Positions 30,008 through 64,000 of a stretch of 64,000 nt of DNA are shown here, one piece after another. The DNA lies in assembly GCF_000970305.1 (NCBI RefSeq), contig NZ_CP009517.1:1984001-2048000 (forward strand). The letters are read 5' to 3'. A program made the position numbers and the translations under genes. The notes below the pieces were generated by a model. That model was not told the DNA's origin. It ran no database searches and saw only the letters and a program-made list of their open reading frames with translations. How positions within the stretch are numbered: position 1 is the stretch's first letter; the number at the start of each line of letters is the position of its first letter. The stretch comes from Methanosarcina barkeri 3 (lineage in GTDB: Archaea > Halobacteriota > Methanosarcinia > Methanosarcinales > Methanosarcinaceae).

Positions 30008-31369
30008 TCACACTTTAAGCGTTTCATGGCTGTCACCTGTCTCTTCGAGCCATTCACAGCCTTCGTCTCGGTTAACAACTCCAACGGTAAACTCTATTCC
30101 GCTTGTTTCCACATATTCCTTTATTCTCTTAAAGGCATGGTCTACCATCCCGCCAGCTGTAAGGATAAGGCAACGTTTTCCACAAAGTGCTGTCAGGATA
30201 GTTTTGTCTATAACACCTGAGGAAATATCCAACCTGATTCCGTCCTGTTCAGCAAGAATTTTACTTTTCTTACCCATTGCTCCAACAAAAATAATTTCTC
30301 CTTCCTTAAGGATTTGTTTTAATTCTGACAGGGAATAGTTGTCAGTATCATAAATCAGGATTCCACCGGCTTTGATTCCCTTACGTTTTAACTCAACAAT
30401 AGCCCTTCCGTCTGGATGAATATGCAGTACGGTAGCGTTAACAGCCTCATAAGGAGAGTGAGTCGCATATTGCCCGTACATAATCCCTAAGTTCAGATTG
30501 TCTCCTTCTTTGACTCCTGGAGGGACATCAACCCATATAAGATCAATAGGTTTTAAAGTATTGACAAGTTCGGGTATGGTTTTTGGGGAATTATCACCAG
30601 ATGCAAGCCCCCTCCTTTCGATTTCATGGTAGATCTCAAGGGTGGTAGGCTGACGGAGTCCCGCTTTTTTGAGGAGTTCGGGTTCTTTGAAAACCTCCGC
30701 CGGTGTGCCCTGTCCTATGATTTTGCTGTTTGACAGGAGGAACACATAGTCGGACCAGCGATATGCAAGGTCCACATCATGCGTAGAGATAATAATAGTG
30801 CTCCCAAACTGGTTAAATTCGTTAAGCAAATCCATTATTTCATCGGCGCCAACAGGATCCAGGTTTGAGAGAGGTTCGTCAAGGATAATCACTTCAGGCT
30901 CCATCGCCATAATTCCGGCAATTGCAACTCGCTTTTTCTGCCCTCCGCTGAGGTGATGGGGAGGTTTGTCCTTCAAGCGAGAGAGTCCTACCTGCTCAAG
31001 AGCTTTCTGCACGCATGAGTCTACCCTTTCTTTTGAATAACCCAGGTTCGCTGGCCCGAAAGCTACATCCTGGTATACCGTGGGGGCAAATATCTGGTCA
31101 TCGGAGTTTTGAAAAACTATTCCTATGGATTTCCTGATGTCCCTTAATGACTTTGAATCATACTTGAATGGAACGCCGTGAAAAAGAACATCTCCCTGAG
31201 CTGGTTTAAGCGTCCCGTTTAAAAGCAGGAAAAGTGTAGACTTACCTGAACCATTCTGTCCTACAAAAGCAACCTTTTTTCCTTTTTTAATTTCAAGATT
31301 CAGATCCTGAACAGCCACTGTTCCGTCAGGGTAAATATATTTAAGATCCCTGGCTTCAAGAATAATCAT
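30008..31369 (-). CDS. cbiO: Cobalt/nickel ECF transporter ATPase CbiO with C-terminal extension
   Basis: ATPase of a cobalt (or nickel) energy-coupling-factor importer, on the cytoplasmic face. 453 residues, against about 270-290 for ordinary CbiO. The first 280 are a full ABC domain: Walker [10 protein letters not shown] (37-45), Q-loop [10 protein letters not shown], signature LSGGQKKR (140-147), Walker B VIILDEP and H-loop STHD. The last about 170 residues are an added domain ([20 protein letters not shown], then [20 protein letters not shown] and [20 protein letters not shown]) that I do not recognise; it might be regulatory or metal-sensing. Starts 11 bases after cbiQ. Confidence 0.92.
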
Positions 31370-31380
31370 AATCTTTTACC

Positions 31381-32163
31381 TCAGACAATAGATACGTTTT
31401 TTGTTAGATAAAGAAGTGCAAAAGTAAGGAAAAAATAGGCTGAAGTAAGAAGCAGTTCAAGGGCTCCTACAGGCCTGTGCACTTCGAAAAGAGCCATTTT
31501 TCCATCATAACATCTTGAATTCATGGCAAGAAAGAGTTTGTCTCCCTGTTCCCAGGAGCGGACGAAAAGAGTACTCGCAAGCATACCCAGTGAATGAATA
31601 GACCGTCTGAAACTCGAGTACCCTAGCCTTACACTCTGGGCATACCTGATAGCAAGTGCCATGTCAAGAAAGACGAAGATATAACGGTAAATCAACATGG
31701 AGAGTTCTATAAAAACCTCAGGAAGCCTGGAAGCTTTAAGCACTGCAAAAAGCTCGATCATCGGTGTTGTCAGCGCCAGGAAATAGAGGCAGCACATACC
31801 GCTGATCGATCTTGCAAGTACGAGAAGGGCAAGTTCAAGCCCGTCTTTCCTTACCGTTAGGGGATACCCCATAAGTTTGAAGGACATTAATTCCTGCCCC
31901 GAACCTGAGAAAAAGGCAATTATAAGGATACCAACTACTGCAAAACCTACCGGTGCAAGCAAAAGTTTCAGGTACAATTTTAAAGGAGCTCGGCCGAGAG
32001 CAACTGATGTAAAGCTCATACATAGGGCTATGAAAAGAGGAGGAAACGGAGATGTGGAAGAAACTCCGACAAGTAGCCCGAAAAGGACTATTGTCAGTTT
32101 TAACCAGTTGTTTCTATGCCTTAAAGGGCTCATAAGGGCGTAGTCATCAAGAATATTGGTCAT
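31381..32163 (-). CDS. cbiQ: Cobalt/nickel ECF transporter transmembrane protein CbiQ
   Basis: 260-residue T-component of the CbiMNQO importer. Five to six membrane helices (for example LKLTIVLFGLLVGVSSTSPF, LLAPVGFAVVGILIIAFFSG). Two conserved Ala-Arg-Gly-like coupling motifs are represented by LVLARSISGMCCLYFLALTT and MALAIRYAQSVRLGYSSF. The signature RSWEQGDKLFLAMNSRCYDG near the C-terminus is typical of CbiQ. Start ATG at 32163 with a weak GGGTTCCC site. Separated from cbiN by 112 bases containing a strong hairpin, unlike the tight cbiQ-cbiO junction. Confidence 0.93.
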   Translation of the reverse strand: MTNILDDYALMSPLRHRNNWLKLTIVLFGLLVGVSSTSPFPPLFIALCMSFTSVALGRAPLKLYLKLLLAPVGFAVVGILIIAFFSGSGQELMSFKLMGYPLTVRKDGLELALLVLARSISGMCCLYFLALTTPMIELFAVLKASRLPEVFIELSMLIYRYIFVFLDMALAIRYAQSVRLGYSSFRRSIHSLGMLASTLFVRSWEQGDKLFLAMNSRCYDGKMALFEVHRPVGALELLLTSAYFFLTFALLYLTKNVSIV

Positions 32164-32231
32164 AGGGAACCCACAGATTGGTGAATGAGACTAAAAATGG
32201 ATATTAAAAATAAAAAGCAAAAGATAAAAAC

Positions 32232-32254
32232 TTTCCTCCCATTGAGGGAGGAAA
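32232..32254 (-). terminator. Hairpin between cbiN and cbiQ (attenuator or processing site)
   Basis: TTTCCTCCC (32232-32240) pairs perfectly with GGGAGGAAA (32246-32254) around a 5-base loop. On the minus strand it is followed by GTTTTTATCTTTTGC and more T-rich sequence, as in an intrinsic terminator. It lies 22 bases after cbiN and would reduce cbiQO relative to cbiMN. Confidence 0.65.
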
Positions 32255-32275
32255 CAAACATGGTGGAAGAAAAGA

Positions 32276-32617
32276 TTATAGAGAGTGTCTGTCACCCTCG
32301 GATTTACTTTTTCCTTTGTATCCTAGCTTATTTTCATAGTTTTTTTTGGCCCTGTAATAGCCAAAGAAGTATCCGATAACTCCTGCACCTATGGCTGCCT
32401 GCAGAGCAAAAAGCAAGCTTTCAATTTCGCCGCTTGGAGGTTCCCAGATAGGCTCTGCTATAGGTTTGTAAGTCCCGCCTGTAATTTCCTCAATAACACC
32501 CTCAGGTTTGTCGTCAGCTCCGCCATATTCGGCATTTGTGGTCGAAGATATGTAAATAAACTGAGCTACAAATATAAGGAGGATAGCAAGTACAATAAGC
32601 TCCAGTTTTCTACTCAT
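32276..32617 (-). CDS. cbiN: Cobalt/nickel transport protein CbiN
   Basis: 113-residue small membrane subunit of the metal importer. N-terminal helix (MSRKLELIVLAILLIFVAQF), an exported loop with TNAEYGGADDKPEGVIEEIT and YKPIAEPIWEPPSGEIESLL, and a second helix (FALQAAIGAGVIGYFFGYYR) with a basic cytoplasmic tail. Two helices and an acidic loop are the CbiN pattern; it helps CbiM load the metal. Overlaps cbiM by four bases (ATGA), so translation is coupled. A hairpin lies just downstream. Confidence 0.93.
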   Translation of the reverse strand: MSRKLELIVLAILLIFVAQFIYISSTTNAEYGGADDKPEGVIEEITGGTYKPIAEPIWEPPSGEIESLLFALQAAIGAGVIGYFFGYYRAKKNYENKLGYKGKSKSEGDRHSL

Positions 32618-33321
32618 GCAGAAAGCCCCCTGATCTTTCGGACAACGGAATCTTCAAGTACCTTCATTTCAACAAGGATATCACTTTTTACCTCAATTAC
32701 ATATTTGAAGAGCAAAGCACTGACAGCACCTTCTATTATTGCCAGGGGCACCTGGGTAATTGCGAAGATTGCAACAAACTTGCTGAACGAACTGAGGAAA
32801 CCTGCAACGGAAAGTACGTCTCCTGCAGGAAATGCAAGAGCAAGCTCGGTAGAAGTTACAATATAAGTAGCCCAGTCTCCAAAGGTCGCAGCCAGAAATA
32901 CAACTAAATAGAAGTTAAGTTTGGCCTTCATTCCAGCCTTATAGATAAGGTACGACACTACCGGACCCACAATGCCCATAGAGAAGACATTTGCCCCCAG
33001 GGTTGTCAAGCCACCATGTGCAAGGAAGAGAGCTTGATAGATAAGTACAATTGTTGAGAGAACCGCAGTAATAGCAGGCCCAAACATAATTGCACCAATG
33101 CCTGTTCCTGTAGGGTGAGAACAGCTTCCGGTAACCGAAGGCATTTTCAGTGAAGAAAGTACGAAAATAAATGCACCTGCAACGGCAAGTAAAGGTAAAA
33201 TTTCTCGTTTTTCTTTCACTAACTTGTTCAGTTTGTAAATACCTAATGCAATAACTGGTATTGATATTGCAAACCACACTATACACCAAATAGCAGGTAA
33301 AAACCCTTCCATTATATGCAT
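32614..33321 (-). CDS. cbiM: Cobalt/nickel transport protein CbiM (substrate-binding subunit)
   Basis: 235 residues from the chosen start. The mature N-terminus MHIMEGFLP is the metal-binding Met-His element of CbiM/NikM, so the ATG at 33319-33321 is required; the site GGTGATCC is upstream. An in-frame start 36 bases earlier would destroy this. Seven membrane helices; GSCSHPTGTGIGAIMFGP and LAHGGLTTLGANVFSMGIVG carry the conserved histidines that bind the metal. Whether it prefers cobalt or nickel cannot be told from the sequence. First gene of cbiMNQO. Confidence 0.94.
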   Translation of the reverse strand: MHIMEGFLPAIWCIVWFAISIPVIALGIYKLNKLVKEKREILPLLAVAGAFIFVLSSLKMPSVTGSCSHPTGTGIGAIMFGPAITAVLSTIVLIYQALFLAHGGLTTLGANVFSMGIVGPVVSYLIYKAGMKAKLNFYLVVFLAATFGDWATYIVTSTELALAFPAGDVLSVAGFLSSFSKFVAIFAITQVPLAIIEGAVSALLFKYVIEVKSDILVEMKVLEDSVVRKIRGLSA

Positions 33322-34228
33322 TGGATCACCATAAATAATGAAGATATATAAGAGCAAATACAGTAAATAAAGTAAATGGGTAATATCAAGTAAATATTAT
33401 TGAGATAAAGACAAGTTAAATTGCGTTGATTTATATATATAAGTTGCGGTGACAGAAAAAGAGGGGCGTGAGCACTTATAAGCTAAATTTAAATGTAATA
33501 ATATTTGGAAGGTAATAAGAGATTTAAAGCAGAACAAGCTAACTTGAAGCAGTGATATGCAAAGATTCAAGAATATATTTATTTCTTTCGATTTATGCAA
33601 TTCAGTACTGCGACTCCGATATAAGTTTATAAAACTTGACTTTTTAATAAGCCCAAAGATCATATATTTCTCCAGGATAAGGAGTTAATTTTAGAATCGA
33701 AGCACAACACCTGCATCTCTGGTGCTGATGTTTTCAGGGTTATTGTCGTGGTGGCATCATCGGGCTGAACTCATCCGGAATTCAAAAAAAGAAGTTTTTA
33801 CTTAAATAGCTAATAATCATGAGCCAAAAACCGTATTTTATTTATTTAATTCTCTATTCTCCAAGTGTTTAAGATATTCTGCAGAATCATTGGTCTATTA
33901 GTTTTAGAAGTTTCTGATTTTGAAATTAAGAATCAGAATCAAGAGTATTTAATCTCATTTTAAAACTCGATAACTGCTTCTATGTGAATTCCTAAGAATA
34001 AATATTTCAAAACAAATTGGTAAATCAGACATATGGGTTATTTTTCACTCAGAGTGCGTCTTGATTCATGATATACTGTACAGGATAGAGGTACGTAACG
34101 GCACAAAACAGGTTATTGGAGTTATCTGCAGGATATTTTACTGCTAGCACATAACGTATCGACTATAAAAACAGTAGAAGTAACTATATTTATTCATATG
34201 TAAAGTTCTAGGATTTGCGGCATATTAG
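33322..34228. other. Long intergenic region upstream of cbiM
   Basis: About 900 AT-rich bases without a gene. A palindromic TTATATATATAA at 33431-33442 is the most likely TATA box for cbiM. A short direct repeat AGTAAATAAAGTAAAT lies near 33360. No cobalamin-riboswitch motif was found. Confidence 0.5.
33431..33442 (-). promoter_or_regulatory. TATA box, probable cbiMNQO promoter
   Basis: TTATATATATAA, 110-121 bases upstream of the cbiM start, implies a leader of roughly 85 bases. Being palindromic it does not fix direction by itself. Confidence 0.45.
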
Positions 34229-35168: not shown

Positions 35169-37070
35169 TTGAAAGAGAAGAGAATATTCATATTAACTGC
35201 TGTTTTTGTACTGTTAATCCTTATATCAAACTCTGCGTCTGCAGCTACTCTCTGTGTGAAGGAAGGAGGAGGTACGGGAGAATACGGAAGCCTGCAGGAA
35301 GCCATAAATGCCGCTGCTGAAGGGGATGTTATCCTCGTCGGTGAAGGAAGATACTGTGAAAATGTACTTGTAAATAAATCTCTAGATATAATTGCCAATA
35401 ATCCATGCCCTAATAAAACAGTCATTACTGCTCTGGACTCTGAACACCCTGTGTTTCATGTGGTTTCCGATTCCGTGAATATCAGTGGATTTACTTTAAA
35501 AGGAACGAATTTAACATATGGAGTGTACCTAGACTGCGTTTCGGAAAACAAAATCAGCAATAACTATATTTCAGGAAACTGGAGAAGTATTGTACTGAGA
35601 GATTCATGTAAGAACTCTCTGGAAAACAATTACTTGTCTAACAGTGACAATGGAATCTGGCTTGAAAGCTCAGGACAAAACTCTATAAAAAACAACAAAG
35701 TAGATTCTAATCGTCATTACGGTTTCTATTTGAACGCGTCCGAAAATAATACCCTTCAAAATGACTGCGCGTTTAACGGAGCAATGGGAATTTATATGGA
35801 AAACTCTTCCGGATGTCAAGTTATTGACTCGGAAACTTCAAACAACTTTTACGGGATCTACCTTACAGGCTCTGGAGAAAGCCTGCTCGAAAACAACACT
35901 GCAGACTCAAATGAGATGTACGGCATATACCTCGGAAACTCGAATGAAAGCACTCTGGAAGGAAATCGTGTAAATTCAAATATGTGGGGGATTTATCTCG
36001 ACTCAAGCTTCAATGTGCTTAAAAACAACACAATGTCTGGAAATAACAGGAATTTTGGTGCTTATACCTATCACTACACTGGAGATATGAATAATACAAT
36101 TGACACCAGCAACACTGTTGATGGAAAATTCATATACTATCTTGTAGGGGTTTCTAACCGGACTCTTGATTCGGATTCAAATGCAGGAGTTGTCTATTGC
36201 ATTAACTGCGAAAATATTACCCTGAAAGACCTGACCCTTGAAAACAACAGTTTCGGAATTTACCTGTACAATACTCAAAACTCAAAGCTTGAAGGAAATA
36301 ATATTTCAAACAACGAACATGGAGTTTACCTCGGGAAATGTTCGGTAGTAACTCTTAGGGGCAATGAAGTCAATTCGAATGAAGGTGATGCCTTCATCTT
36401 AAGCAACTGCAGGAACTGCCTTGCAGAAAAGAACAATGCCTCGAACAATATGGCAGGTATCTGGCTCTGTGATATCAGCAGAGACAATATCCTCAAAGAA
36501 AACACAGTTACTTCGAGCAGCTGGTGTTGCATTGACCTTGGGGACACAAGCTGCAACAACACTCTGGAAGGAAATACTCTTTCCGGAGCCTATGAAGGAA
36601 TTTACCTGTACGGAGCCAGTGAGAAAAATACTTTGAACAATAATACTATTACAGCCAGCTCCTATGGATTATTTACGGAAGGCTGTAGTAACAATACGAT
36701 TTCAGGAAACAGTATTTCGGGGAATGACGTCGGATTATCTCTTAACCTGAACTGGACCGATGGGACAAACTCGGATTACAATACCGTCTATAACAACTAT
36801 TTTAATAACAGCAAAAATGCCGAAGATTACGGAACAAATACCTGGAACATTTCAAAAACCGAAGGTGAAAATATCGTCGGAGGACCTTACCTGGGCGGAA
36901 ATTTCTGGGCTTCTCCGAAAGGAGATGGCTTTTCAGAAACAGCCTCGGATAAGGATGGAGACATGATTGCGGACCTGCCGTACAATATAACGGAAACGAA
37001 CTATGATTATCTCCCTCTTGTATTCGAAAAACCTCTAGAAAAAACTGAAAATAAGGATGAAAAAAAGTGA
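35169..37070 (+). CDS. Exported NosD-like parallel beta-helix protein
   Basis: 633 residues from a TTG start with AGGAAGATG upstream. Signal peptide 1-24 (RIFILTAVFVLLILISNSAS). The rest is a right-handed beta-helix built from repeating NosD/PbH1 rungs of 22-24 residues rich in Asn and Gly (NSLENNYLSNSDNGIWLESS, NSTLEGNRVNSNMWGIYLDS, SKLEGNNISNNEHGVYLGKC). The end YNITETNYDYLPL is the standard C-terminal NosD cap. Surface carbohydrate-binding or polysaccharide-modifying role is likely; no catalytic residues identified. Ends in a lysine/glutamate-rich tail beside a purine repeat tract. Confidence 0.9.
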   Translation: MKEKRIFILTAVFVLLILISNSASAATLCVKEGGGTGEYGSLQEAINAAAEGDVILVGEGRYCENVLVNKSLDIIANNPCPNKTVITALDSEHPVFHVVSDSVNISGFTLKGTNLTYGVYLDCVSENKISNNYISGNWRSIVLRDSCKNSLENNYLSNSDNGIWLESSGQNSIKNNKVDSNRHYGFYLNASENNTLQNDCAFNGAMGIYMENSSGCQVIDSETSNNFYGIYLTGSGESLLENNTADSNEMYGIYLGNSNESTLEGNRVNSNMWGIYLDSSFNVLKNNTMSGNNRNFGAYTYHYTGDMNNTIDTSNTVDGKFIYYLVGVSNRTLDSDSNAGVVYCINCENITLKDLTLENNSFGIYLYNTQNSKLEGNNISNNEHGVYLGKCSVVTLRGNEVNSNEGDAFILSNCRNCLAEKNNASNNMAGIWLCDISRDNILKENTVTSSSWCCIDLGDTSCNNTLEGNTLSGAYEGIYLYGASEKNTLNNNTITASSYGLFTEGCSNNTISGNSISGNDVGLSLNLNWTDGTNSDYNTVYNNYFNNSKNAEDYGTNTWNISKTEGENIVGGPYLGGNFWASPKGDGFSETASDKDGDMIADLPYNITETNYDYLPLVFEKPLEKTENKDEKK

Positions 37071-37212
37071 GAGAAAAAATGAGAGAAAAAGTGAGAAAAA
37101 GTGAGATAAGAAGCGAGAAAAAGTGAGAGAAAAAGCGAGAAAAAGTGAGAGAAAAAGCGAGAAAAAGCGAGAAAAAGTGAGAGAAAAAGCGAGAAAAAGT
37201 GAGAGAAGAACA
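37061..37212. repeat. Purine-only tandem repeat tract
   Basis: About 150 bases of the unit GAGAAAAAGT or GAGAAAAAGC in roughly 10-18 base periods. Begins at the last codons of the beta-helix gene and ends before the ribosome site of the exported corrinoid-fold gene. Polypurine mirror repeats can form triplex DNA. Confidence 0.8.
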
Positions 37213-37268: not shown

Positions 37269-37817
37269 ATGTACGGGAAAAATTTCAATTTATTGGTTCT
37301 GTTAATCCTGGGTATAATTGTTTCACAACTAGTCTTTCCGGTGTCAGGTGAAGCTTCTTGCAAACAGGAGAATGAGAGTAACGGAACTGTCATAATCGGC
37401 ACTGTTGAAGGGGATTCACATACTTTTGTGAAAGATAGCGTTGCTACTGCGCTTGAGAATGAAGGTTTTGAAGTAATTGATCTTGGAAACGGCGTATCAG
37501 CTGAAAGTTTTGCTGCAAGCGCAAAAGAAGAGAAAGCTGATTTTGTGTTCAGTTTTGCCTCTATGAGCACTACAATGATCCACCAGATCCAGATTGAAGA
37601 GCAGCTCAAGGCTGCAGGTATCCGTGATAAAGTTATAACAGGTGTAGGAGGATCGCTTGTAACTCAGGCCTGGGCTGACCAGATAGGAACCGACATATAT
37701 GTTTCTGGCCCGGAAGATGTCGTTTCCAAAGCAAAATTGGCTTTACTGAAAAGTAACAATAACGCTCTGAAAGCCAGTGTTCCAGCCAATGAAAATGCCA
37801 GTTGCAAAAATCCTTAA
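37269..37817 (+). CDS. Exported corrinoid (B12)-binding-domain protein
   Basis: 182 residues. Hydrophobic signal (about 6-25, NLLVLLILGIIVSQLVFPVS); C31 lies in EASC, a weak lipobox candidate. Residues about 40-155 are a Rossmann-like B12-binding domain as in MtaC/MttC corrinoid proteins: GTVEGDSHTFVKDSVATALE, GFEVIDLGNGVSAE, a DFVFSFASMSTTM stretch and VITGVGGSLVTQAWADQIGT. The cobalt-ligating histidine H51 is present (D49-S-H51) but the DxHxxG glycine is Val54, and the SxL motif is changed (FAS). There is no N-terminal helical bundle. An exported corrinoid domain is unusual. Start ATG has a strong GGAGATAAAAAC site. Confidence 0.8.
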   Translation: MYGKNFNLLVLLILGIIVSQLVFPVSGEASCKQENESNGTVIIGTVEGDSHTFVKDSVATALENEGFEVIDLGNGVSAESFAASAKEEKADFVFSFASMSTTMIHQIQIEEQLKAAGIRDKVITGVGGSLVTQAWADQIGTDIYVSGPEDVVSKAKLALLKSNNNALKASVPANENASCKNP

Positions 37818-37990: not shown

Positions 37991-38144
37991 TCATGGACAA
38001 GAATTCATGGACAAGAATTCATGGACAAGAATTCATGGACAAGAATTCATGGACAAGAATTCATGGACAAGAATTCATGGACAAGAATTCATAGACAAGA
38101 ATTCATGGACAAGAATTCATAGACAAGAATTCATAGACACGATT
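37991..38144. repeat. 14-bp minisatellite, ten copies plus one degenerate
   Basis: Unit TCATGGACAAGAAT; ten copies from 37991 to 38130 (two with TCATAGA) and an eleventh degenerate TCATAGACACGATT. Contains GAATTC across junctions. Intergenic, no spacers. Confidence 0.95.
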
Positions 38145-45580: not shown

Positions 45581-48061
45581 TTATTCGTTTTCAGAATACG
45601 TCCCAGATTTCGTATTTGTTGTCACTTTTATGTAGTCGGTTTTTGCTACCGTGTTCCTGCCTACAACGTTCTTTACTGTCAAGTTAACAGTATATGTTCC
45701 TGCCTTGGAATACTTATGAGTCGGATTCTCGATAAATGACTTTGATCCGTCTCCAAACTCCCAGATCCAGCCAGAAGCCGTACCTGTACTTGTATCAGTA
45801 AATTTAACATTTAATGGTGCTTTTCCTGACGTTACACTGCTGGTGAAATTTGCAACAGGTTTTGATATTACGCTTATAAGTTCTGTTTTGGTTACTGTGT
45901 TACGTCCTGCAGCGTTCTTTACTGTCAAGTTAACAGTATATGTTCCAGCCTTAGAATATTTATGAATCGGATTCTCGACAAATGATCTTGATCCGTCTCC
46001 AAAATCCCAGATCCAGCCAGTAGGAATTCCTGTGCTTGCATCAGTAAATTTAACGTTCAATGGAGCTTTTCCTGACGTTACACTGCTGGTAAAGTTTGCA
46101 GCAGGTTTTGAGATCACTTTTACATAATCGGTTTCTGTAATCGTATTACTACCCTTAGCATTGGTAACAGTGAGTGTTACCGTATACTTTCCTGCTTTAG
46201 AATACTTATGCTTTGGATTCTGGATTGTGGACGATGTTCCGTCTCCAAAACTCCATTTCCATTTAGTAGGCATGTTACTACTCTTGTCAGTAAAAGCAAC
46301 TGTTAATGGTGTTTTTCCTGAAGCAGAAGATGCTGAAAAAGCAGCTACTGGCTTTCCGGGAGATGAAACAATGACTTTAATGTACCCGGTTTTTACTTCA
46401 GAATCGCTTCCACCAGGTCCGGTTACAGTGAGGTTGACAGTGTACGTGCCGGCAGTACCGTAAGTATAGGAAGGGCTTTGTTCGGTGCTATCTACAATGC
46501 CATCGTTATTAAAATCCCATGAATACGATGAGATATTGCCAGTTGACTGGTCTGTAAACTTGACAGTAAGAGGAGCAGTACCGTTCGTCACATCAGCTAG
46601 AAATGCAGAAATTGGCGGTTCAGAAGGTGTTGAGTTTTCAGAAACAGTGATATAGTCAGTCTTTACAGTGCTGTTGCTGTCAATGGAATTTGTGACTGTA
46701 AGGCTAACAGTGTAGTTGCCTGCGTCAATATAGGTATATACAGGGTTTTGTTCCGTACTGTCAACAGTACCGTCGTTATCAAAATCCCATGAATAAGAAG
46801 AGACATTACCGGTTGAAGTATCAGTGAAGTTGACAGTAAGAGGAGCGTCTCCAGAAGTCGGTGTTGCTGTAAAATCAGCAATTGGAGCGGAAGTAATCGG
46901 TAGTGCTTCAATTATTATATCATTTCCGTCAACTGTGATTTTACCCATAAGGGGTGCAGTGTCACTTCCGGAACCAATTGCATAAGGAGTATCACAGATT
47001 CCGTTGTTATCAGCATCTGCGCCTGTGTAGTCGTTATAGTAGTTGCCTAGAGAGGAGGTGTAGGACTCGTTTTTGTAGCTGTACTTTACAGTGCTACTGA
47101 TATACTGGACGGAGCCGGCCGGTGAACCGTCATTGATGTTGACGGTGTTGTTAATGAAGTTGTTGTGGTAAACCTTATTGCCAGTGCCAGTTTTTCCGCT
47201 TTTCAAGTTAAAAGTAATCCCTACAGAATTGGAGTCAAAGGTGTTTCCAGTAATAATATTGCCATTACTTTTAGGATCTATAAGTAAACCTCCATAACCA
47301 TCAGCACTGGTACAGTGTGAAATGACATTATCACTGAATGTTATGTCGTTTCCTCCCTTGCCAATACTAACTGCATAGTTAGAAGTAACGTTTGTAAAGG
47401 TGTTACCTGTAATCACACCGCCGTTATTTACCCTGCCCGCATAACAATAACAATTATCAAACTGGTTTTCGGTAAGGATCAGTTTCCCTTGGACATTATC
47501 AACACCGCATGAAGAGGATCCGTTAACGAAAACATTATTTGAATATTCAACATTATTCAGGATAATTGAACTTAAATACACACCTTTGAATATACAGTTT
47601 CTGATTATAACATTGGTAGAGTCATAATCTGATCCACGGATTTCAACCCATCTCGTAGTGGACGATGAAAAGCTTATGTTCTCAATCAGGATATCATGGG
47701 CAGTTTCAATATTAGATAAGTCAAAATTTAGCGCATTGTAATCAATAAAATTAAAGGTTACTTTATCTGCACCTGCACCTATAAAAGATAGAGGTTTGTC
47801 GGATATAAATAAAACCTGATTTATGTCATACGTTCCAGGGTTGAAGTATAAGACATCTCCAGCCTGTGCTTCATTAATTTTTGAGAGAATATTATCTCCA
47901 GGATTGACATCAATAGTTTGTGCCGAAGCAGAACCAACAAAGGCAAACAACAGGATAAGGAATATACTTAAAACAAGGCCATGTTTGGCAATATTTTGTA
48001 TTCTGTTTTGTGCTTTATTTTGGGCTCTATTTTTTGTCATACTTTTTATAATTGTTTTCAT
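45581..48061 (-). CDS. Exported beta-helix/PKD repeat surface protein (paralogue A)
   Basis: 826 residues. Unusual polar N-terminus (MTKNRAQNKAQNRIQNIAK) precedes the signal core GLVLSIFLILLFAFVGSASA. Residues about 49-385: beta-helix rungs (INEAQAGDVLYFNPGTYDIN, NVIIRNCIFKGVYLSSIILN) ending in a NosD cap GNYYNDYTGADADNNGI. Then five PKD domains from about 390 to 820 (motif WDFDNDGTVDSTEQNPVYTY, later WSFGDGTSS, WDFGDGSRS, WEFGDGSKS). Outside of the cell; adhesion or matrix role likely. Ribosome site GGAGTAACAAT. Its leader (about 1.1 kb) is shared with paralogues B and C. Confidence 0.92.
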   Translation of the reverse strand: MKTIIKSMTKNRAQNKAQNRIQNIAKHGLVLSIFLILLFAFVGSASAQTIDVNPGDNILSKINEAQAGDVLYFNPGTYDINQVLFISDKPLSFIGAGADKVTFNFIDYNALNFDLSNIETAHDILIENISFSSSTTRWVEIRGSDYDSTNVIIRNCIFKGVYLSSIILNNVEYSNNVFVNGSSSCGVDNVQGKLILTENQFDNCYCYAGRVNNGGVITGNTFTNVTSNYAVSIGKGGNDITFSDNVISHCTSADGYGGLLIDPKSNGNIITGNTFDSNSVGITFNLKSGKTGTGNKVYHNNFINNTVNINDGSPAGSVQYISSTVKYSYKNESYTSSLGNYYNDYTGADADNNGICDTPYAIGSGSDTAPLMGKITVDGNDIIIEALPITSAPIADFTATPTSGDAPLTVNFTDTSTGNVSSYSWDFDNDGTVDSTEQNPVYTYIDAGNYTVSLTVTNSIDSNSTVKTDYITVSENSTPSEPPISAFLADVTNGTAPLTVKFTDQSTGNISSYSWDFNNDGIVDSTEQSPSYTYGTAGTYTVNLTVTGPGGSDSEVKTGYIKVIVSSPGKPVAAFSASSASGKTPLTVAFTDKSSNMPTKWKWSFGDGTSSTIQNPKHKYSKAGKYTVTLTVTNAKGSNTITETDYVKVISKPAANFTSSVTSGKAPLNVKFTDASTGIPTGWIWDFGDGSRSFVENPIHKYSKAGTYTVNLTVKNAAGRNTVTKTELISVISKPVANFTSSVTSGKAPLNVKFTDTSTGTASGWIWEFGDGSKSFIENPTHKYSKAGTYTVNLTVKNVVGRNTVAKTDYIKVTTNTKSGTYSENE

Positions 48062-49375: not shown

Positions 49376-51799
49376 TTATTTTGTATTTGTTGTCACTTTT
49401 ATGTAATCGGTTTTTGTTGTCGTACTGATGCCTGCAGCATTTGTTGATGTCAGTGTCACTGTATAACTTCCGGTTTTAGAATACTTATGTTTTGGATTCT
49501 GGATTGTCGACGATGTTCCGTCTCCAAAACTCCACTTCCATTTAGTTGGTGAACCTGTGCTTGCGTCAGTAAAGGCAACCGTTAATGGCGTTTTTCCTGA
49601 CGTTGGAGTTGCAGAGAATTCAGCAACCGGTTTTGCTGTCACTTTTATATATTCTGTTTTTGTTACCGTGTTACGTCCTGCAGCATTCTTTACTGTCAAA
49701 TTAACAGTATATGTTCCTGCTTTAGAATACTTATGAACCGGATTCTCAACAAATGACCTTGATCCGTCTCCAAATTCCCAGATCCAGCCAGAAGGTGTAC
49801 CTGTGCTTGTGTCAGTAAACTTAACGTTCAATGGAGCTTTTCCTGAAGTAACACTGCTGGTGAAGTTTGCAACCGGTTTTGCTATCACTTTTATATAGTC
49901 TGTCTCTGTTACCGTGTTACTGCCTTTAGCATTGGTAACTGTAAGTGTTACCGTATACTTTCCTGCTTTAGAATACTTATGCTTTGGATTCTGGATTGTG
50001 GAAGACGCTCCGTCTCCAAAATTCCATTTCCATTTAGTAGGCATGTTACTACTCTTGTCAGTAAAAGCAACTGTTAATGGTATTTTTCCTGAAGAAGGAG
50101 ATACTGAAAAAGCAGCTACTGGCTTTGCTGGAGATGAACCAGTGACTTTAATATACCCGGTTTTTACTTCAGAATCGCTTCCACCAGGTCCGGTTACCGT
50201 GAGGTTTACAGTGTACGTGCCGGCAGTACTGTAGGTATAGGAAGGATTCTGTTCGGTGCTATCTATAATGCCATCGTTATTAAAGTCCCACGAATAAGAT
50301 GAGATATCGCCAGTTGACTGGTCTGTAAACTTGGCAGTAAGAGGAGCAGTACCAGAAGTCGGAGTAGCTGTGAAATTTGCAACAGGTGCTCCAGGCAGCG
50401 GTTCGCTTACAACAATGTAATCCGTCTTTACTTCAAAATCGTTTCCGTCTGCGTTAGAAACTGTAAGGTTGACAGTATAGTTACCAGCAGCAGTGTAAGT
50501 GTAAATTGGGTTCTGTTCAGTGCTGTCTACATTCCCATCGTTATCAAAATCCCATGAATAAGAAGAGACATTACCGGTTGAAGTATCAGTGAAGTTGACA
50601 GTAAGAGGAGCGTCTCCAGAAATCGGTGTTGCTGTAAAATCAGCAATTGGAGCGGAAGTACTTGGTGGTGCTTCAATTATTATATCATTTCCGTCAACTG
50701 TGATTTTACCCATAAGGGGTGCAGTGTCACTTCCGGAACCAATTGTGTAAGGAGTATCACCTATTCCGTTATTATCAGCATCTGCGCCTGTGTAGTCGTT
50801 ATAGTAGTTGCCTAGAGAGGAGGTGTAGGACTCGTTTTTGTAGCTGTACTTTACAGCGCTACTGATATACTGGACGGTACCAGCCGGCGAACCGTCATTG
50901 ATGTTGACGGCATTGTTAATAAAATTGTTGAGGTAGATCTTGTTGCCGGCACCAGGTATTCCATTTCCCTCCGTTCCGACATTTATTCCTTCAGAATTTG
51001 AATCAAAAGTGTTTTCAGTAATGATATTGTTTTTACTGTTTTTACTATCGCCAGATATTAGTATAGCTCCAAGGGTACAGTTTGAAAAAACATTGTCTTT
51101 TAATGTTAAGTAGTTGTTGCATTCCATTATTCTACATGCAGGAATTTCAGAAGTATTCGTAAAGGTGTTACCTGTAATATTACCACTAACGCGCATCATA
51201 TTCCAACTGACCTTATCCATCCGGTTTTCGGTAAAGGACAGCTTCTCAGCGGAAATACTGTTAGATATGTCATAGGCATATGGAGATATGAAAACATTAT
51301 TCGAAACATCAGCATTCTTCAGGTTACCTAGAGTTACACTACTCATTACACAGTTTTCAATTACAACATTGCTGTCACCGTAATCCGACCCGTAGACATT
51401 AAAACCATTAGAGAAACTAATATTTTCAACCCGAATGTCGGAAGCACTTTCATAATCGCCGTAATTAATAGATGTGGTTTTTCCAAGTACAGTTACCTTA
51501 TCTGCTCCTGAGCCTATTAGTGATACAGGTTTATCATTTATAGCCCAATTTCGGGTCATCTGATAAGTTCCAGGGTTGAAGTAGATGACATCTCCAGCCT
51601 GTGCTTCATTAAGGAGGATGGAGCGGACGTCATCACTAGGGTTGACCTCAATAGTTTGTGCCGATGCAGAGCCGATAAAGGCAAACAGCAGGATAAGGAA
51701 TATACTTAAAACAAGGCCATGTTTGGCAATATTTTGTATTCTGTTTTGTGCTTTATTTTGGGCTCTATTTTTTGTCATACTTTTTATAATTGTTTTCAT
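49376..51799 (-). CDS. Exported beta-helix/PKD repeat surface protein (paralogue B)
   Basis: 807 residues. Same layout as paralogue A: polar N-terminus, signal GLVLSIFLILLFAFIGSASA, beta-helix to about residue 375 (IEVNPSDDVRSILLNEAQAG and NVVIENCVMSSVTLGNLKNA) and five PKD domains from about 381 (WDFDNDGNVDSTEQNPIYTY, WNFGDGASS, WEFGDGSRS, WSFGDGTSS). The beta-helix differs from that of A but is nearly identical to that of paralogue C; the PKD part is shared with all. Ribosome site GGAGTAACAAT. Surface/adhesin role likely. Confidence 0.92.
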   Translation of the reverse strand: MKTIIKSMTKNRAQNKAQNRIQNIAKHGLVLSIFLILLFAFIGSASAQTIEVNPSDDVRSILLNEAQAGDVIYFNPGTYQMTRNWAINDKPVSLIGSGADKVTVLGKTTSINYGDYESASDIRVENISFSNGFNVYGSDYGDSNVVIENCVMSSVTLGNLKNADVSNNVFISPYAYDISNSISAEKLSFTENRMDKVSWNMMRVSGNITGNTFTNTSEIPACRIMECNNYLTLKDNVFSNCTLGAILISGDSKNSKNNIITENTFDSNSEGINVGTEGNGIPGAGNKIYLNNFINNAVNINDGSPAGTVQYISSAVKYSYKNESYTSSLGNYYNDYTGADADNNGIGDTPYTIGSGSDTAPLMGKITVDGNDIIIEAPPSTSAPIADFTATPISGDAPLTVNFTDTSTGNVSSYSWDFDNDGNVDSTEQNPIYTYTAAGNYTVNLTVSNADGNDFEVKTDYIVVSEPLPGAPVANFTATPTSGTAPLTAKFTDQSTGDISSYSWDFNNDGIIDSTEQNPSYTYSTAGTYTVNLTVTGPGGSDSEVKTGYIKVTGSSPAKPVAAFSVSPSSGKIPLTVAFTDKSSNMPTKWKWNFGDGASSTIQNPKHKYSKAGKYTVTLTVTNAKGSNTVTETDYIKVIAKPVANFTSSVTSGKAPLNVKFTDTSTGTPSGWIWEFGDGSRSFVENPVHKYSKAGTYTVNLTVKNAAGRNTVTKTEYIKVTAKPVAEFSATPTSGKTPLTVAFTDASTGSPTKWKWSFGDGTSSTIQNPKHKYSKTGSYTVTLTSTNAAGISTTTKTDYIKVTTNTK

Positions 51800-53845: not shown

Positions 53846-56515
53846 TTAGACTGCTGTCACTTTCATATAATTTGTTTTTGTTGTCGTACTGCTGCCTGCA
53901 GCATTTGTTGCCGTCAACGTGACAGTATAGTTTCCAGCTTTGGAATACTTATGCTTTGGATTCTGGAGTGTGGACGATGCACCGTCTCCAAAGTTCCATT
54001 TCCATTTACTTGGTGAACCTGTACTAGTGTCAGTAAAAGCAACCGTCAACGGGGACTTTCCTGAAGTAACACTGCTCGTGAAGTTTGCAACAGGTTTTGC
54101 TGTCACTTTTATATAATCGGTTTTTGTTACCGTGTTGCTGCCTACGGCGTTCTTTACTGTCAACTTAACAGTGTATGTTCCTGCTTTACTGTACTTATGA
54201 GTCGGATGCTCGACAAATGACTTCGATCCGTCTCCAAACTCCCAGATCCATGCAGCAGGTGTTCCTGTGCTTGTATCAGTAAATTTAACGTTCAATGGTG
54301 CTTTTCCTGAAGTAACACTGCTGGTAAAGTTTGAAACAGGCTTTGCTGTCACTTTTATATATTCCGTTTTTGTTACCTTGTTACTGCCTGCAGCATTCTT
54401 TACTGTTAAGTTAACAGTATATGTTCCTGCTTTACTGTACTTATGAGTTGGATTCTCGACAAATGACTTTGATCCGTCTCCAAACTCCCAGATCCAGCCA
54501 GAAGCCATACCTGTGCTTGTGTCAGTAAATTTAACGTTTAATGGCGCTTTTCCTGACGTAACACTGCTGGTGAAGTTTGCATCAGGTTTTGATATAACTT
54601 TTATATAATCGGTTTCTGTTATCGTATTACTACCCTTAGCATTGGCAACGGTGAGTGTTACCGTATACTTTCCTGCTTTGGAATACTTATGCTTTGGATT
54701 CTGGATTGTGGAAGACGCTCCGTCTCCAAAACTCCATTTCCATTTAGTAGGCATGTTACTACTCTTGTCGGTAAAAGCAACTGTTAATGGTGTTTTTCCT
54801 GAAGCAGAAGATGCTGAAAAAGCAGCTACTGGCTTTCCGGGAGATGAAACAGTGACTTTAATGTATCCGGTTTTTACTTCAGAATCGCTTCCATCAGCGT
54901 TGGAAACAGTAAGGTTGACAGTGTACGTGCCTGCCGTACCGTAAGTATACGAAGGACTCTGTTCGGTGCTATCTATAATGCCATCATTATCAAAGTCCCA
55001 TGAATACGATGAGATATTGCCAGTTGACTGGTCTGTAAACTTGACAGTAAGAGGAGCAGTACCGTTCGTCACATCAGCTAGAAATGCAGAAATTGGCGGT
55101 TCAGAAGGTGTTGAGTTTTCAGAAACAGTGATATAGTCAGTCTTTACAGTGCTGTTGATGCCAATGGCATTTGTGACTGTAAGGTTAACAGTGTAGTTGC
55201 CTGCGTCAATATAGGTATATACAGGGTTCTGTTCGGTGCTATCTATAATGCCATCGTTATTAAAGTCCCATGAATAAGAAGAGACATTACCAGTTGAAGT
55301 ATCAGTGAAGTTGACAGTAAGAGGAGCGTCTCCAGAAGTCGGTGTTGCTGTAAAATCGGCAATTGGAGAGGAAGTACTCGGTAGTGCTTCAATTATTATA
55401 TCATTTCCGTCAACTGTGATTTTACCCATAAGGGGTGCAGTGTCACTTCCGGAACCAATTGCATAAGGAGTATCACCTATTCCGTTATTATCAGCATCTG
55501 CACCTGTGTAGTCGTTATAGTAGTTGCCTAGAGAGGAGGTGTAGGACTCGTTTTTGTAGCTGTACTTTACAGCGTTACTGATATACTGGACGGAGCCGGC
55601 CGGCGAACCGTCATTGATGTTGACGGTGTTGTTAATGAAGTTGTTGAGGTAGATCTTGTTGCCGGCACCAGGTATTCCATTTCCCTCCGTTCCGACATTT
55701 ATTCCTTCAGAATTTGAATCAAAAGTATTTTCAGTAATGATATTGTTTTTACTGTTTTTACTATCGCCAGATATTAGTATAGCTCCAAGGGTACAGTTTG
55801 AAAAAACATTGTCTTTTAATGTTAAGTAATTGTTGCATTCACCTATCCAACATGTAGGAATTGAAGAAGTATTCGCAAAGGTGTTACCTGTAATATTACC
55901 ACTAACGCGCATCATATTCCAACCGACCTTATCCATCCGGTTTCCGATAAAGGTCAGCCTCTCAGCGGAAATACTGTTTTGTACATCATAGGCATATGGA
56001 GATATGAAAACATTATTCGAAACTTCAACATTCTTCAGGTTACCTAGCGATACACTACTCATGACACAATTTTCAATTACAACATTGCTGTCACCGTAAT
56101 CCGACCCGTAGATAGAAAAACCATTAGAGAAGCTAATATTTTCAACCCGAATGTCGGAAGCACTTTCATAATCGCCGTAATTAATAGATGTGGTTTTTCC
56201 AAGTACAGTTACCTTATCTGCTCCTGAGCCTATTAGTGATACAGGTTTATCATTTATAGCCCAATTTCGGGTCATCTGATAAGTTCCAGGGTTGAAGTAG
56301 ATGACATCTCCAGCCTGTGCTTCATTAAGGAGGATGGAGCGGACGTCATCACTAGGGTTGACCTCAATAGTTTGTGCCGATGCAGAGCCAACAAAGGCAA
56401 ACAGCAGGATAAGGAATATACTTAAAACAAGGCCATGTTTGGCAATATCTTGTACTCTGTTTTGTGCCTTATTTTGGGCCCTATTTTTTGTCATACTTTT
56501 TATAATTGTTGTCAT
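53846..56515 (-). CDS. Exported beta-helix/PKD repeat surface protein (paralogue C)
   Basis: 889 residues. Starts MTTIIKSMTKNRAQNKAQNR then signal GLVLSIFLILLFAFVGSASA, a beta-helix almost identical to that of paralogue B through residue 375, and six PKD domains from about 382 (one more than A or B: WDFNNDGIIDSTEQNPVYTY, WDFDNDGIIDSTEQ, WSFGDGASS, two WEFGDGSKS and a final WNFGDGASS). Blocks shared with A in one domain and with B in another indicate gene conversion. Surface role likely; no anchor seen. Ribosome site GGAGTAACAAA. Confidence 0.92.
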   Translation of the reverse strand: MTTIIKSMTKNRAQNKAQNRVQDIAKHGLVLSIFLILLFAFVGSASAQTIEVNPSDDVRSILLNEAQAGDVIYFNPGTYQMTRNWAINDKPVSLIGSGADKVTVLGKTTSINYGDYESASDIRVENISFSNGFSIYGSDYGDSNVVIENCVMSSVSLGNLKNVEVSNNVFISPYAYDVQNSISAERLTFIGNRMDKVGWNMMRVSGNITGNTFANTSSIPTCWIGECNNYLTLKDNVFSNCTLGAILISGDSKNSKNNIITENTFDSNSEGINVGTEGNGIPGAGNKIYLNNFINNTVNINDGSPAGSVQYISNAVKYSYKNESYTSSLGNYYNDYTGADADNNGIGDTPYAIGSGSDTAPLMGKITVDGNDIIIEALPSTSSPIADFTATPTSGDAPLTVNFTDTSTGNVSSYSWDFNNDGIIDSTEQNPVYTYIDAGNYTVNLTVTNAIGINSTVKTDYITVSENSTPSEPPISAFLADVTNGTAPLTVKFTDQSTGNISSYSWDFDNDGIIDSTEQSPSYTYGTAGTYTVNLTVSNADGSDSEVKTGYIKVTVSSPGKPVAAFSASSASGKTPLTVAFTDKSSNMPTKWKWSFGDGASSTIQNPKHKYSKAGKYTVTLTVANAKGSNTITETDYIKVISKPDANFTSSVTSGKAPLNVKFTDTSTGMASGWIWEFGDGSKSFVENPTHKYSKAGTYTVNLTVKNAAGSNKVTKTEYIKVTAKPVSNFTSSVTSGKAPLNVKFTDTSTGTPAAWIWEFGDGSKSFVEHPTHKYSKAGTYTVKLTVKNAVGSNTVTKTDYIKVTAKPVANFTSSVTSGKSPLTVAFTDTSTGSPSKWKWNFGDGASSTLQNPKHKYSKAGNYTVTLTATNAAGSSTTTKTNYMKVTAV

Positions 56516-61720: not shown

Positions 61721-64000
61721 ATGAATGAAAAGTCGAATAAAGAAATAAGTCTTTTGAACAAGAAAATTAAGGCTTCGATAATGGCATTCTTAATGTTTTT
61801 AATGCTATTTTCGATATCTTCGGCAGCTGGAAGCGTGGATCTTCAATATGAGCTTGTTGCCAGTACAACAAGTGATGCTGAAGGTAATTACCTGTTTTCC
61901 GACATTCCCGACGGAGATTATACGCTTATAGCTCTTTACAACGAGGACAAATGGCGCCGTGCCGATGAACAAATTCGGATTCAGAACGGAGCGGATCTTT
62001 CAGTGAACCTCGATACCTCAAGCAGGGATATCGATGAAAACGAATCGCAGGCTCTTTTTGAAATGTCTGGCAGTGAGGCTAACCCGTCTGGCAGTGCCAA
62101 AATTAGCGGATTCACTCGTCAGAAACAGATGAATGCTGACCCTATACCTCTAGGTTCAACAAAAGTTCTTTTGTTAAAGGAAACTGGAACGGAAGCTCAG
62201 GATAATTCCGGTGAGACTCAGAGTAACTCCAGTAAAACTCAGGATAATTCCGGTGAGACTCAGAGTAACTCCAGTGAAACTCAGGATAATTCCGGTGAGA
62301 CTCAAAGTAACTCCAGTAAAACTCAGGAGAACTCCAGCCAGATTCAGAGTAATTCCAGCCAGATTCAGAGTAATTCCAGCCAGATTCAGAGTAATTCCAG
62401 CAACAACCAGAATCTGAACATTGCAATAGTAACCGGATACAGGAGCCATGAGCTCCCTCTCAAAAACCTGATGGAAAAACTCAACAATGACAGCAGCTTA
62501 AACCTTACTCTTAACTGCTTTATGGCTGACTATGTGATGGAAAACGATGTTGACCTGAGCACGATGGACATAATATACATCAATATGCTCAGTCCTTCAA
62601 CAGCCCAGAAGCTTACACCAACAGTGGACAGTGCAATTACTAACGGGTGTGTGGTTATTGATGATGATACCCTTTTGAATGAGAGTATCCCGCTTCCTGA
62701 AGACCAGATTGAGAGCTACAGGGAAAAACTGAACAACTACTGGCTTAACGGGGCTTATGAACAGGATAATTTGAAAAATCTCGTATTCTGTATCGCCAGT
62801 GACTGCTGCGGCAGGTCTGACCTGCAGTACGAGGAGCCGCATACGCTTCCTGAAAGAGCGATCTATCACACGAACATGACAGGCTACTTTACCGATTCTC
62901 TGGATACCTACCTTGCATGGTATTCAAACCGAAGTGATGGAGGGCATGTATACGATCCTGCAAAGCCCACAGTTGCAATTACCATGTACCAGAGCTATTT
63001 CCCATTCCAGATTGAGCCAATTGATGCCTTGATCTCAAAACTGGAAGCAAAAGGCTACAATGTTATTGCCACATATGGATCCGATAACCTATCCTCAGGT
63101 GATTTTTTCAAGCAGGGGGATGAGGTTCTTGTAGATGCGATTATTTCATTTACGTACTTTGGCAACAAGTTTGATGCCGAAGATCTCGATGTACCTGTAA
63201 TTAACGGCATTATTGACAATTACATGAACAAAACCGAGTATGAAACCAACAGCAGACCGCTTCCTGCGGACAAGATGATGAAGCTCGACTTGCAGGAACT
63301 CTGGGGAGCTATTGACCCTATAATAATGGCTGCAACGGAAGTAGATCCCGAAACAGAGACCGAGACTTCGGTTTCCATAGATTACCAGGTAGACTGGCTT
63401 GTTGACCGCGTGGAAAGCTGGGTAAACCTTAGTGAAATTCCGGGGTCGGACAAAAAAGTTGCTATAATCTATTATAATCATGGAGGAGGTAAGGATAATA
63501 TAGGGGCTTCTTATCTCGATGTTATTCCAAGTTTGTCCAACCTTCTTGATGCTATGGCTAAAGACGGTTACGACCTGAATGAAAGCCAGTCCCTTAACGA
63601 GACCGAGCTCCTGAATTTGATGCTTACTCAGGGTATCAACATAGGAACCTGGGCTCCAGGGGAACTCCAGAAATTGGTTGATACCGGAAAAGTAGTTCTC
63701 CTTCCCGAAAGTACCTATGAGCAATGGTTCTCGGAATTACCTGAAGAGAGACAGCAGGAGGTCATTGACCAGTGGGGTCCGGCTCCTGGAAAGATCATGG
63801 TCTGGGAAAACGAGAGTGGAAAATACCTCGTAATTCCCAGAATCGAGGTAGGGGAAAATATTATTCTGGCTCCGCAGCCTTCAAGAGGCTGGCTTGATGA
63901 TAACGAAGCTCTTTATCATGACAAGGATTTACCTCCTCACCACCAGTACATTGCTTTCTACCTCTGGCTCCAGCATTCCAAGGAAGAAGGGGGATTCGGC
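61721..64000 (+). CDS. Exported CobN-like (cobaltochelatase/Mg-chelatase H) protein, N-terminal part
   Basis: 760 codons, open to the window edge, C-terminus missing. Signal anchor about 17-36 (ASIMAFLMFLMLFSISSA). Residues about 40-80 keep part of a carboxypeptidase-regulatory-like domain (TSDAEGNYLFSDIPDGDYTL). A linker of ten 7-residue repeats (TQDNSGE, TQSNSSK, IQSNSSQ) spans about 159-228. Then the CobN/BchH domain: LNIAIVTGYRSHELPLKNLM, MDIIYINMLSPSTAQKL, KPTVAITMYQSYFPFQIEPI and KVAIIYYNHGGGKDNIGASY. Cytoplasmic CobN inserts cobalt into a corrin ring; an exported version may act on tetrapyrroles outside. Ribosome site AGAGGTT before the ATG. Confidence 0.9.
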   Translation, partial: MNEKSNKEISLLNKKIKASIMAFLMFLMLFSISSAAGSVDLQYELVASTTSDAEGNYLFSDIPDGDYTLIALYNEDKWRRADEQIRIQNGADLSVNLDTSSRDIDENESQALFEMSGSEANPSGSAKISGFTRQKQMNADPIPLGSTKVLLLKETGTEAQDNSGETQSNSSKTQDNSGETQSNSSETQDNSGETQSNSSKTQENSSQIQSNSSQIQSNSSQIQSNSSNNQNLNIAIVTGYRSHELPLKNLMEKLNNDSSLNLTLNCFMADYVMENDVDLSTMDIIYINMLSPSTAQKLTPTVDSAITNGCVVIDDDTLLNESIPLPEDQIESYREKLNNYWLNGAYEQDNLKNLVFCIASDCCGRSDLQYEEPHTLPERAIYHTNMTGYFTDSLDTYLAWYSNRSDGGHVYDPAKPTVAITMYQSYFPFQIEPIDALISKLEAKGYNVIATYGSDNLSSGDFFKQGDEVLVDAIISFTYFGNKFDAEDLDVPVINGIIDNYMNKTEYETNSRPLPADKMMKLDLQELWGAIDPIIMAATEVDPETETETSVSIDYQVDWLVDRVESWVNLSEIPGSDKKVAIIYYNHGGGKDNIGASYLDVIPSLSNLLDAMAKDGYDLNESQSLNETELLNLMLTQGINIGTWAPGELQKLVDTGKVVLLPESTYEQWFSELPEERQQEVIDQWGPAPGKIMVWENESGKYLVIPRIEVGENIILAPQPSRGWLDDNEALYHDKDLPPHHQYIAFYLWLQHSKEEGGFG
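62195..62404 (+). repeat. 21-bp coding tandem repeat, ten units
   Basis: Heptapeptide units of the type TQDNSGE, TQSNSSK and IQSNSSQ within the CobN-like protein. Every unit is 21 bases, so the frame is kept. It forms a flexible Ser/Asn/Gln linker with many potential glycosylation sites (NSS). Confidence 0.92.

Follow-up and report, generated by a model that had tools for sequence, protein, structure and literature searches.

Rossmann-type corrinoid domains are known as components of methyltransferases, mutases and sensors inside the cell. The closest described counterpart of the protein reported here is MttC (PDB 7xcn; TIGR02370), with which it shares the core fold, the cobalt-ligand triad, the GG motif and 53–58% identity in the domain. 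According to the excerpts available of PMC9842639, the cobalt ligand of MttC is His107, backed by Asp105 and Thr158, an Arg130–Glu225 salt bridge ties MttC to MttB, and residues 2–84 form a helical cap. Unlike MttC, our protein lacks the cap, the docking Arg and the Leu of the SxL motif, carries a signal-type N-terminus and is accompanied by a beta-helix protein, not by a methyltransferase. The factor IIIm-binding protein of Moorella (1y80; 35% identity) has the same core domain, a likeness drawn from structure alone; its record title mentions no export. BtuG-type corrinoid capture in Bacteroides is comparable by its described role alone: these proteins are bacterial lipoproteins, and the likeness would lie in a cell-surface role, if our main reading is right (PMC6143338, excerpts).

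HmuS and BtuS of Bacteroidota resemble not the corrinoid protein but the CobN-type proteins encoded near it, in family (PF02514), signal-type N-terminus and C-terminal membrane anchor; BtuS1/2 are predicted to be exported and membrane attached (PMC6460266, excerpts). The neighbours described here differ in being archaeal and in adjoining, in some genomes, a cobalt transporter and not hmu genes. HmuS, a CobN-family member, has been reported to de-chelate heme, and in the part available of that paper the authors call the use of the archaeal homologs unclear (PMC12583661). The accessible text of PMC6460266 has heme-iron use in B. fragilis served by BtuS1/2 together with the importer FeoAB, a double mutant still freeing porphyrin, and that of PMC10846266 has two BtuS/CobN-like proteins made by M. 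barkeri responding to iron and sulfur source. A search of open-licence PMC papers yielded no description of a corrinoid protein that is exported. The corrinoid proteins named in the available part of PMC4350412 are of the MtaC type only, and the available parts of PMC9012536 and PMC9084895 contain nothing on the protein reported here.

The corrinoid-domain protein and its predicted structure

The window (the whole stretch of DNA analyzed, 64,000 nucleotides of the Methanosarcina barkeri 3 genome) includes a gene for a protein in which a B12-binding domain follows a signal-type N-terminus and short linker and precedes a short tail (Table 1). The Pfam profile PF02310 covers residues 40–150 with 75.5 bits (cut-off 32.1), and the open frame, at 199 aa, is the shortest among the 13 PF02310 matches of the host genome. 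Its top PDB sequence match is MttC (7xcn, E 6.6e-36). The initial annotation had likened the domain to both MtaC and MttC; it is the second likeness that stands, as identity is about 53–58% to MttC-type relatives and 26–29% to those of the MtaC type (L005, L006, L008). Against the TIGR02370 (pyl_corrinoid) profile the protein scores 115 bits, below the cut-off of 215.3, in an alignment that starts at profile position 75, and the full consensus DxHxxG – SxL – GG is not present, V54, F96 and S98 departing from it while GG is kept. As both the curated PF02310 profile and the fold apply, we place the protein in the superfamily, though among its divergent members.

Table 1. Features of the window, and related genes at other loci (L numbers).
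Feature	Coordinates	Strand	Basis or remark
cbiM, cbiN, cbiQ and ABC ATPase (cbiO position), cobalt transporter	30008..33357	-	Pfam CbiM, CbiN, CbiQ, ABC_tran
Possible CobN C-terminal anchor remnant (weak)	33649..33792	+	tblastn E 0.002-0.007, three CobN queries
Putatively exported N-terminal CobN-type chelatase fragment, 191 aa	34229..34804	+	directly upstream of the gene pair
Putatively exported NosD/beta-helix partner, 633 aa	35169..37070	+	constant upstream neighbour
Putatively exported cap-less corrinoid (B12-binding) domain protein	37269..37817	+	ATG start, 182 aa; PF02310, PDB match, model
Signal-type N-terminus, residues 1-30 (approximate end)	37269..37358	+	hydropathy in 11/11 orthologs; model helix 4-22
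B12-binding Rossmann-type domain, residues 39-160	37383..37748	+	H51 codon 37419-37421; Pfam, alignment, model
Putatively exported, C-terminally anchored CobN-type chelatase, 1580 aa	61721..64000, past window end	+	PF02514
Cation-efflux-type genes	L047:10354-11562, L049:16474-17706, L080:14052-15254	-, +, -	PF01545, scanned for L047 only

An AlphaFold2 model was built from an alignment of eight rows, three of them exported proteins, and reaches block-mean pLDDT values of 93–98 over residues 41–160. It superposes on holo-MttC (7xcn) with Z 24.9 and 1.0 Å over 126 residues and on 1y80 with Z 24.6 and 0.9 Å over 125 residues; Foldseek concurs. The structure prediction that had been proposed as a check of the initial annotation gives a corrinoid-type fold, and the structural outcome named as refuting did not arise. 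The helical cap, already noted as absent in that annotation, was found neither in the sequence nor in the model, in which residues 1–38 are a signal-type helix and linker; it is likewise lacking in all 11 orthologs.

The signal peptide that had been called at the N-terminus is supported by a basic residue followed by a hydrophobic core and a small-residue end. The 15-residue Kyte–Doolittle mean is 2.95, vs. 0.69–1.30 in three cytosolic paralogs, and hydropathy detects such a core in 11/11 orthologs; judged in this way, the segment could also be an uncleaved anchor. N-x-S/T sequons occur in the linker or tail of every ortholog, eight of them in that of genome G075, which we take to be M. acetivorans, and the G078 ortholog has one additional sequon within the domain. 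A hydrophobic N-terminus together with sequons would fit export and N-glycosylation. As a general feature, the lipoprotein type was discarded, since some of the 11 orthologs lack the Cys near the signal end. At the DNA level, tandem repeats flank the gene (37058–37207, 6.8 copies of a 22-base unit; 37991–38139, 10.6 copies of a 14-base unit), and an Rfam scan of the window returned no RNA, including the cobalamin riboswitch, at the gathering score.

Origin, selection and motif changes

When 111 Methanosarcinaceae genomes were searched, 11 orthologs were obtained at 203–381 bits, all from Methanosarcina; non-orthologs did not exceed 135.5 bits among the matches listed. Of the 30 Methanosarcina genomes, 11 thus carry the gene; among the remaining 19, some are incomplete. 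A profile made of the 11 rows recovers the same 11 proteins among 237 genomes of the class at 328–369 bits, and the next match, with up to 14 candidates scored per genome, scores 165 bits, its alignment beginning at model position 30. In relatives L011–L015, read by eye, the domain is preceded by a long cap-like stretch, and the N-terminus is not of the signal type. The 11 exported proteins group as one clade (100/100) in a tree of 42 corrinoid domains, on a stem of 0.79 among MttC-type proteins. Domain dN/dS is below 0.5 in 55/55 ortholog pairs (median 0.12). The single clade, its long stem and the low dN/dS point to one origin, a burst of change and subsequent constraint. Domain dN/dS also disposes of a chance or decaying ORF. 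One pair, G079–G086, is an outlier with a whole-gene dN/dS of 0.76 at a dS of 0.08; the G086 protein is C-terminally shortened.

To locate the changes, the 11 exported rows were compared with the 21 MttC-like rows among 31 cytosolic ones (L001–L003, L005, L006, L008, L011 and L013–L015 being left out; L012 and L043, both included, are identical), and all 31 were tallied alongside. In the 7xcn alignment, His107, Asp105, Thr158 and Arg130 of MttC, with the roles given in the excerpts of PMC9842639, correspond to H51, D49, T102 and N74 of the window protein. The cobalt-ligand triad H51, D49 and T102 is invariant in the 11 exported rows, and so are both glycines of the GG motif (G127, G128); the retention of H51 had been recognized from the outset, and D49 accompanies it throughout. 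Position 74, the MttB-docking Arg site in the same excerpts, is N, D, E or S in every exported row and Arg or Lys in 21/21 MttC-like rows.

At the remaining consensus positions the orthologs are not uniform. The SxL stretch, initially described as replaced, reads F96-A97-S98 in the window protein. Its last residue is Ser in 11/11 exported rows and Leu in 31/31 cytosolic rows, so that this replacement holds for the family; position 96 is still Ser in six orthologs and Phe in five. Likewise, the reported Gly-to-Val exchange is real in the window protein but is not a family feature: position 54 is Val in two orthologs (that of the window's genome and that of G101) and Gly in the other nine. Combined, G54/S96 occurs in six orthologs, G54/F96 in three and V54/F96 in two. 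The V54, F96 and L98S changes may weaken or alter binding of the nucleotide tail. With triad and GG kept and both docking Arg and SxL Leu lost, the pattern suggests that the grip on cobalt is retained and the parts serving methyl transfer are gone.

Overall, the MttC-like rows share 78 conserved columns, of which 21 are altered in every exported row. The altered columns amount to 12/28 in the corrinoid-end loops vs. 9/50 elsewhere (Fisher p 0.03). This weak enrichment gives p 0.04 and 0.12 at two other thresholds, and the loop limits used for it were set by hand from predicted secondary structure.

A constant beta-helix partner and a variable cobalt context

In all 11 carriers a beta-helix gene (NosD and Beta_helix families) lies directly upstream on the same strand, and close orthologs of it (E <=1e-120) are confined to the 11 of 30 genomes that carry the corrinoid gene. 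The gene pair is the unit of inheritance. The gap between both genes is about 200 bases in the window and in G101, vs. 17–63 in the others. In the four carriers with cytochrome-c maturation genes (L053, L054, L055, L056) a DUF2111-PAS-GAF gene is directly upstream of the pair on the same strand; its product may be a regulator or a heme sensor.

Genes related to cobalt accompany the pair in part of the carriers. In the window it stands between the cobalt transporter genes and the CobN-type gene that begins at 61721. The CobN fragment of the window shares 66–77% identity with the N-termini of full-length CobN neighbours, and its dN/dS of 0.20–0.29 in five of six pairs indicates purifying selection. 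As a stand-alone fragment it is kept in four genomes (G000, G101, G077, G076), the rest of CobN being gone. The pair has a CobN gene next to it in G078, G079 (on both sides) and G086, and in G076 one lies about 2 kb from it, in two frames. Counting genes and fragments, CobN is nearby in 7 of the 11 carriers, which are all seven without cytochrome-c maturation genes; if fragments are excluded, the count falls to four (G076, G078, G079, G086), with CobN next to the pair or no more than a few kb from it. cbiM is within the examined stretch of five (G000, G101, G076, G077, G078). Neither CobN nor cbiM was found in the examined stretches of the four Ccm-positive carriers, and a cobalt context common to all carriers was therefore dropped. 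The cobalt and CobN neighbours may reflect lineage hitch-hiking. In the pair-less genomes G099 and G103, an ortholog of the window's CobN gene (89–94% identity) is divergent from cbiM at a distance of about 1 kb. By analogy, recovery of cobalt would be the joint task of the corrinoid-binding protein, the CobN-type protein and the cobalt importer.

Further observations concern the same neighbourhoods. The CobN gene at the window's end has a full-length counterpart with a C-terminal membrane segment at L080:1722-6464. Genes for DUF2162 and MotA/ExbB are found beside CobN genes at L051 and L052, with DUF2149 also at L052; in G079 the pair lies between two full-length CobN-type genes for putatively exported proteins (L051:2038-7275 and L051:10842-16151), the DUF2162 and MotA/ExbB genes being upstream. 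In two relatives a cation-efflux-type gene lies between cbiN and cbiQ, and in the window's genome it has apparently been displaced to about 2.058 Mb. The window also encodes, on the minus strand, three large surface-type proteins in a row (45581–48061, 49376–51799 and 53846–56515) with near-identical N-termini and PKD-like repeats.

Possible functions

Most likely, the gene encodes an extracytoplasmic corrinoid-binding protein, a neofunctionalised offspring of MttC. Its single origin, evolutionary constraint, fold and ligand triad are established by computation, as are the signal-type N-terminus, the constant partner and the gene context; its location, ligand and use we infer. An MttC-type gene would, on a single occasion, have lost its helical cap and gained a signal peptide, docking on a methyltransferase being given up. 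The resulting soluble protein would be sent across the membrane and hold a corrinoid in the base-off/His-on form by His51, backed by Asp49 and Thr102. Working as a pair with the presumably secreted beta-helix protein encoded just upstream, it would capture extracellular corrinoids and hand them over; in one lineage, exported CobN-type chelatases of the HmuS/BtuS kind and the CbiMNQO importer would recover the corrinoid or its cobalt. To this explanation as a whole, an exported His-on corrinoid binder paired with a beta-helix protein for capture and hand-over, we assign a probability of about 0.5. The initial annotation had reasoned that an exported domain implies binding or another ligand. Of its reading, predicted export, the corrinoid fold and a role outside methyl transfer are supported; as the whole ligand triad is kept, a corrinoid is favoured over another ligand.

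The invariant triad bears on several alternatives at once. It is specific to cobalt corrinoids and so speaks against an alternative that we regard as improbable, namely that the ligand, at least in the window's lineage, is some tetrapyrrole that is not a complete cobamide (for example F430 or a corrinoid lacking the tail). V54 and F96 may there fill the pocket of the nucleotide tail, which we assume to be lined by positions 54, 96 and 98. The stepwise series from G54/S96 through G54/F96 to V54/F96, on top of L98S in all orthologs, would suit such a ligand, and the changed positions fall within the printed cobalamin-binding consensus DXHXXG-SXL-GG (PMC4915002, excerpts). If the domain held no cofactor and served as a reused scaffold, for instance as the beta-helix protein's partner at the surface or in glycan binding, the altered MttC-like columns and the constancy of the beta-helix protein would follow; the invariance of D49, H51, T102, G127 and G128 would be hard to explain, and we give this option an equally low chance. 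The same triad, intact as cobalt redox cycling demands, is what could still be said for an ordinary cytoplasmic methyltransferase corrinoid protein with a mis-read N-terminus. This is highly improbable: the cap is absent and the docking Arg, identified from excerpts of PMC9842639, is lost in all 11 proteins, their N-termini are hydrophobic and their flanks carry sequons, and no cognate methyltransferase gene or family was found among the Pfam-scanned neighbours (part of the ORFs in the examined stretches).

A different alternative arises from the C-terminal tail. In G075, G082, G083 and G084 the protein ends in CG[NS]CH plus one residue, and genes for CcmE (PF03100) and Cytochrom_C_asm (PF01578) are present in these same four carriers and in no others of the 11 (among the 19 pair-less genomes, five have both and three have one). 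Non-overlapping ORFs of the window and ten loci, 61,961 residues in all, contain no further CxxCH, and the motif is kept while the surrounding tail varies. With CxxCH, a signal-type N-terminus and Ccm genes, the four proteins would qualify as candidate c-type cytochromes; the window protein does not. The protein might accordingly be fed by the cytochrome system and act as a redox protein of two tetrapyrroles, the domain holding a corrinoid and the CxxCH a covalent heme c; where Ccm and the heme site are lacking, the corrinoid part would act alone. We hold this to be unlikely, if worth keeping in mind: the four carriers form one clade in a domain tree from which the tail was excluded (99/95) and the match of CxxCH with Ccm is for this reason a single evolutionary contrast, and the CGxC-H tail could also be a metal-ion site or a thiol pair. 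Presuming that locus tags run along the chromosome, we set the gene apart from the cytochrome genes catalogued in M. acetivorans. Five c-type cytochrome genes are listed for that species in PMC6703419, and in the part available the exported corrinoid gene is seemingly not among them.

Speculatively, and with low confidence, the observations might be joined further. Cytochrome-c-making Methanosarcina would then combine an exported corrinoid domain and covalent heme c in one small extracellular protein, and with the beta-helix partner and, in relatives, CobN and the cobalt importer, this would amount to an archaeal extracellular system reducing, holding and stripping corrinoids for cobalt. If true, it would add an uncounted c-type cytochrome candidate, presumably in M. 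acetivorans.

For an extracytoplasmic corrinoid binder, the reading that we prefer, the locus offers a handle on a question posed in print, in the part available of PMC12583661, namely the role of archaeal HmuS/CobN-type chelatases. With a conserved exported corrinoid domain, the management of corrinoids by methanogens would extend beyond the cell, into surroundings in which cobalt and cobamides are either shared or contested.
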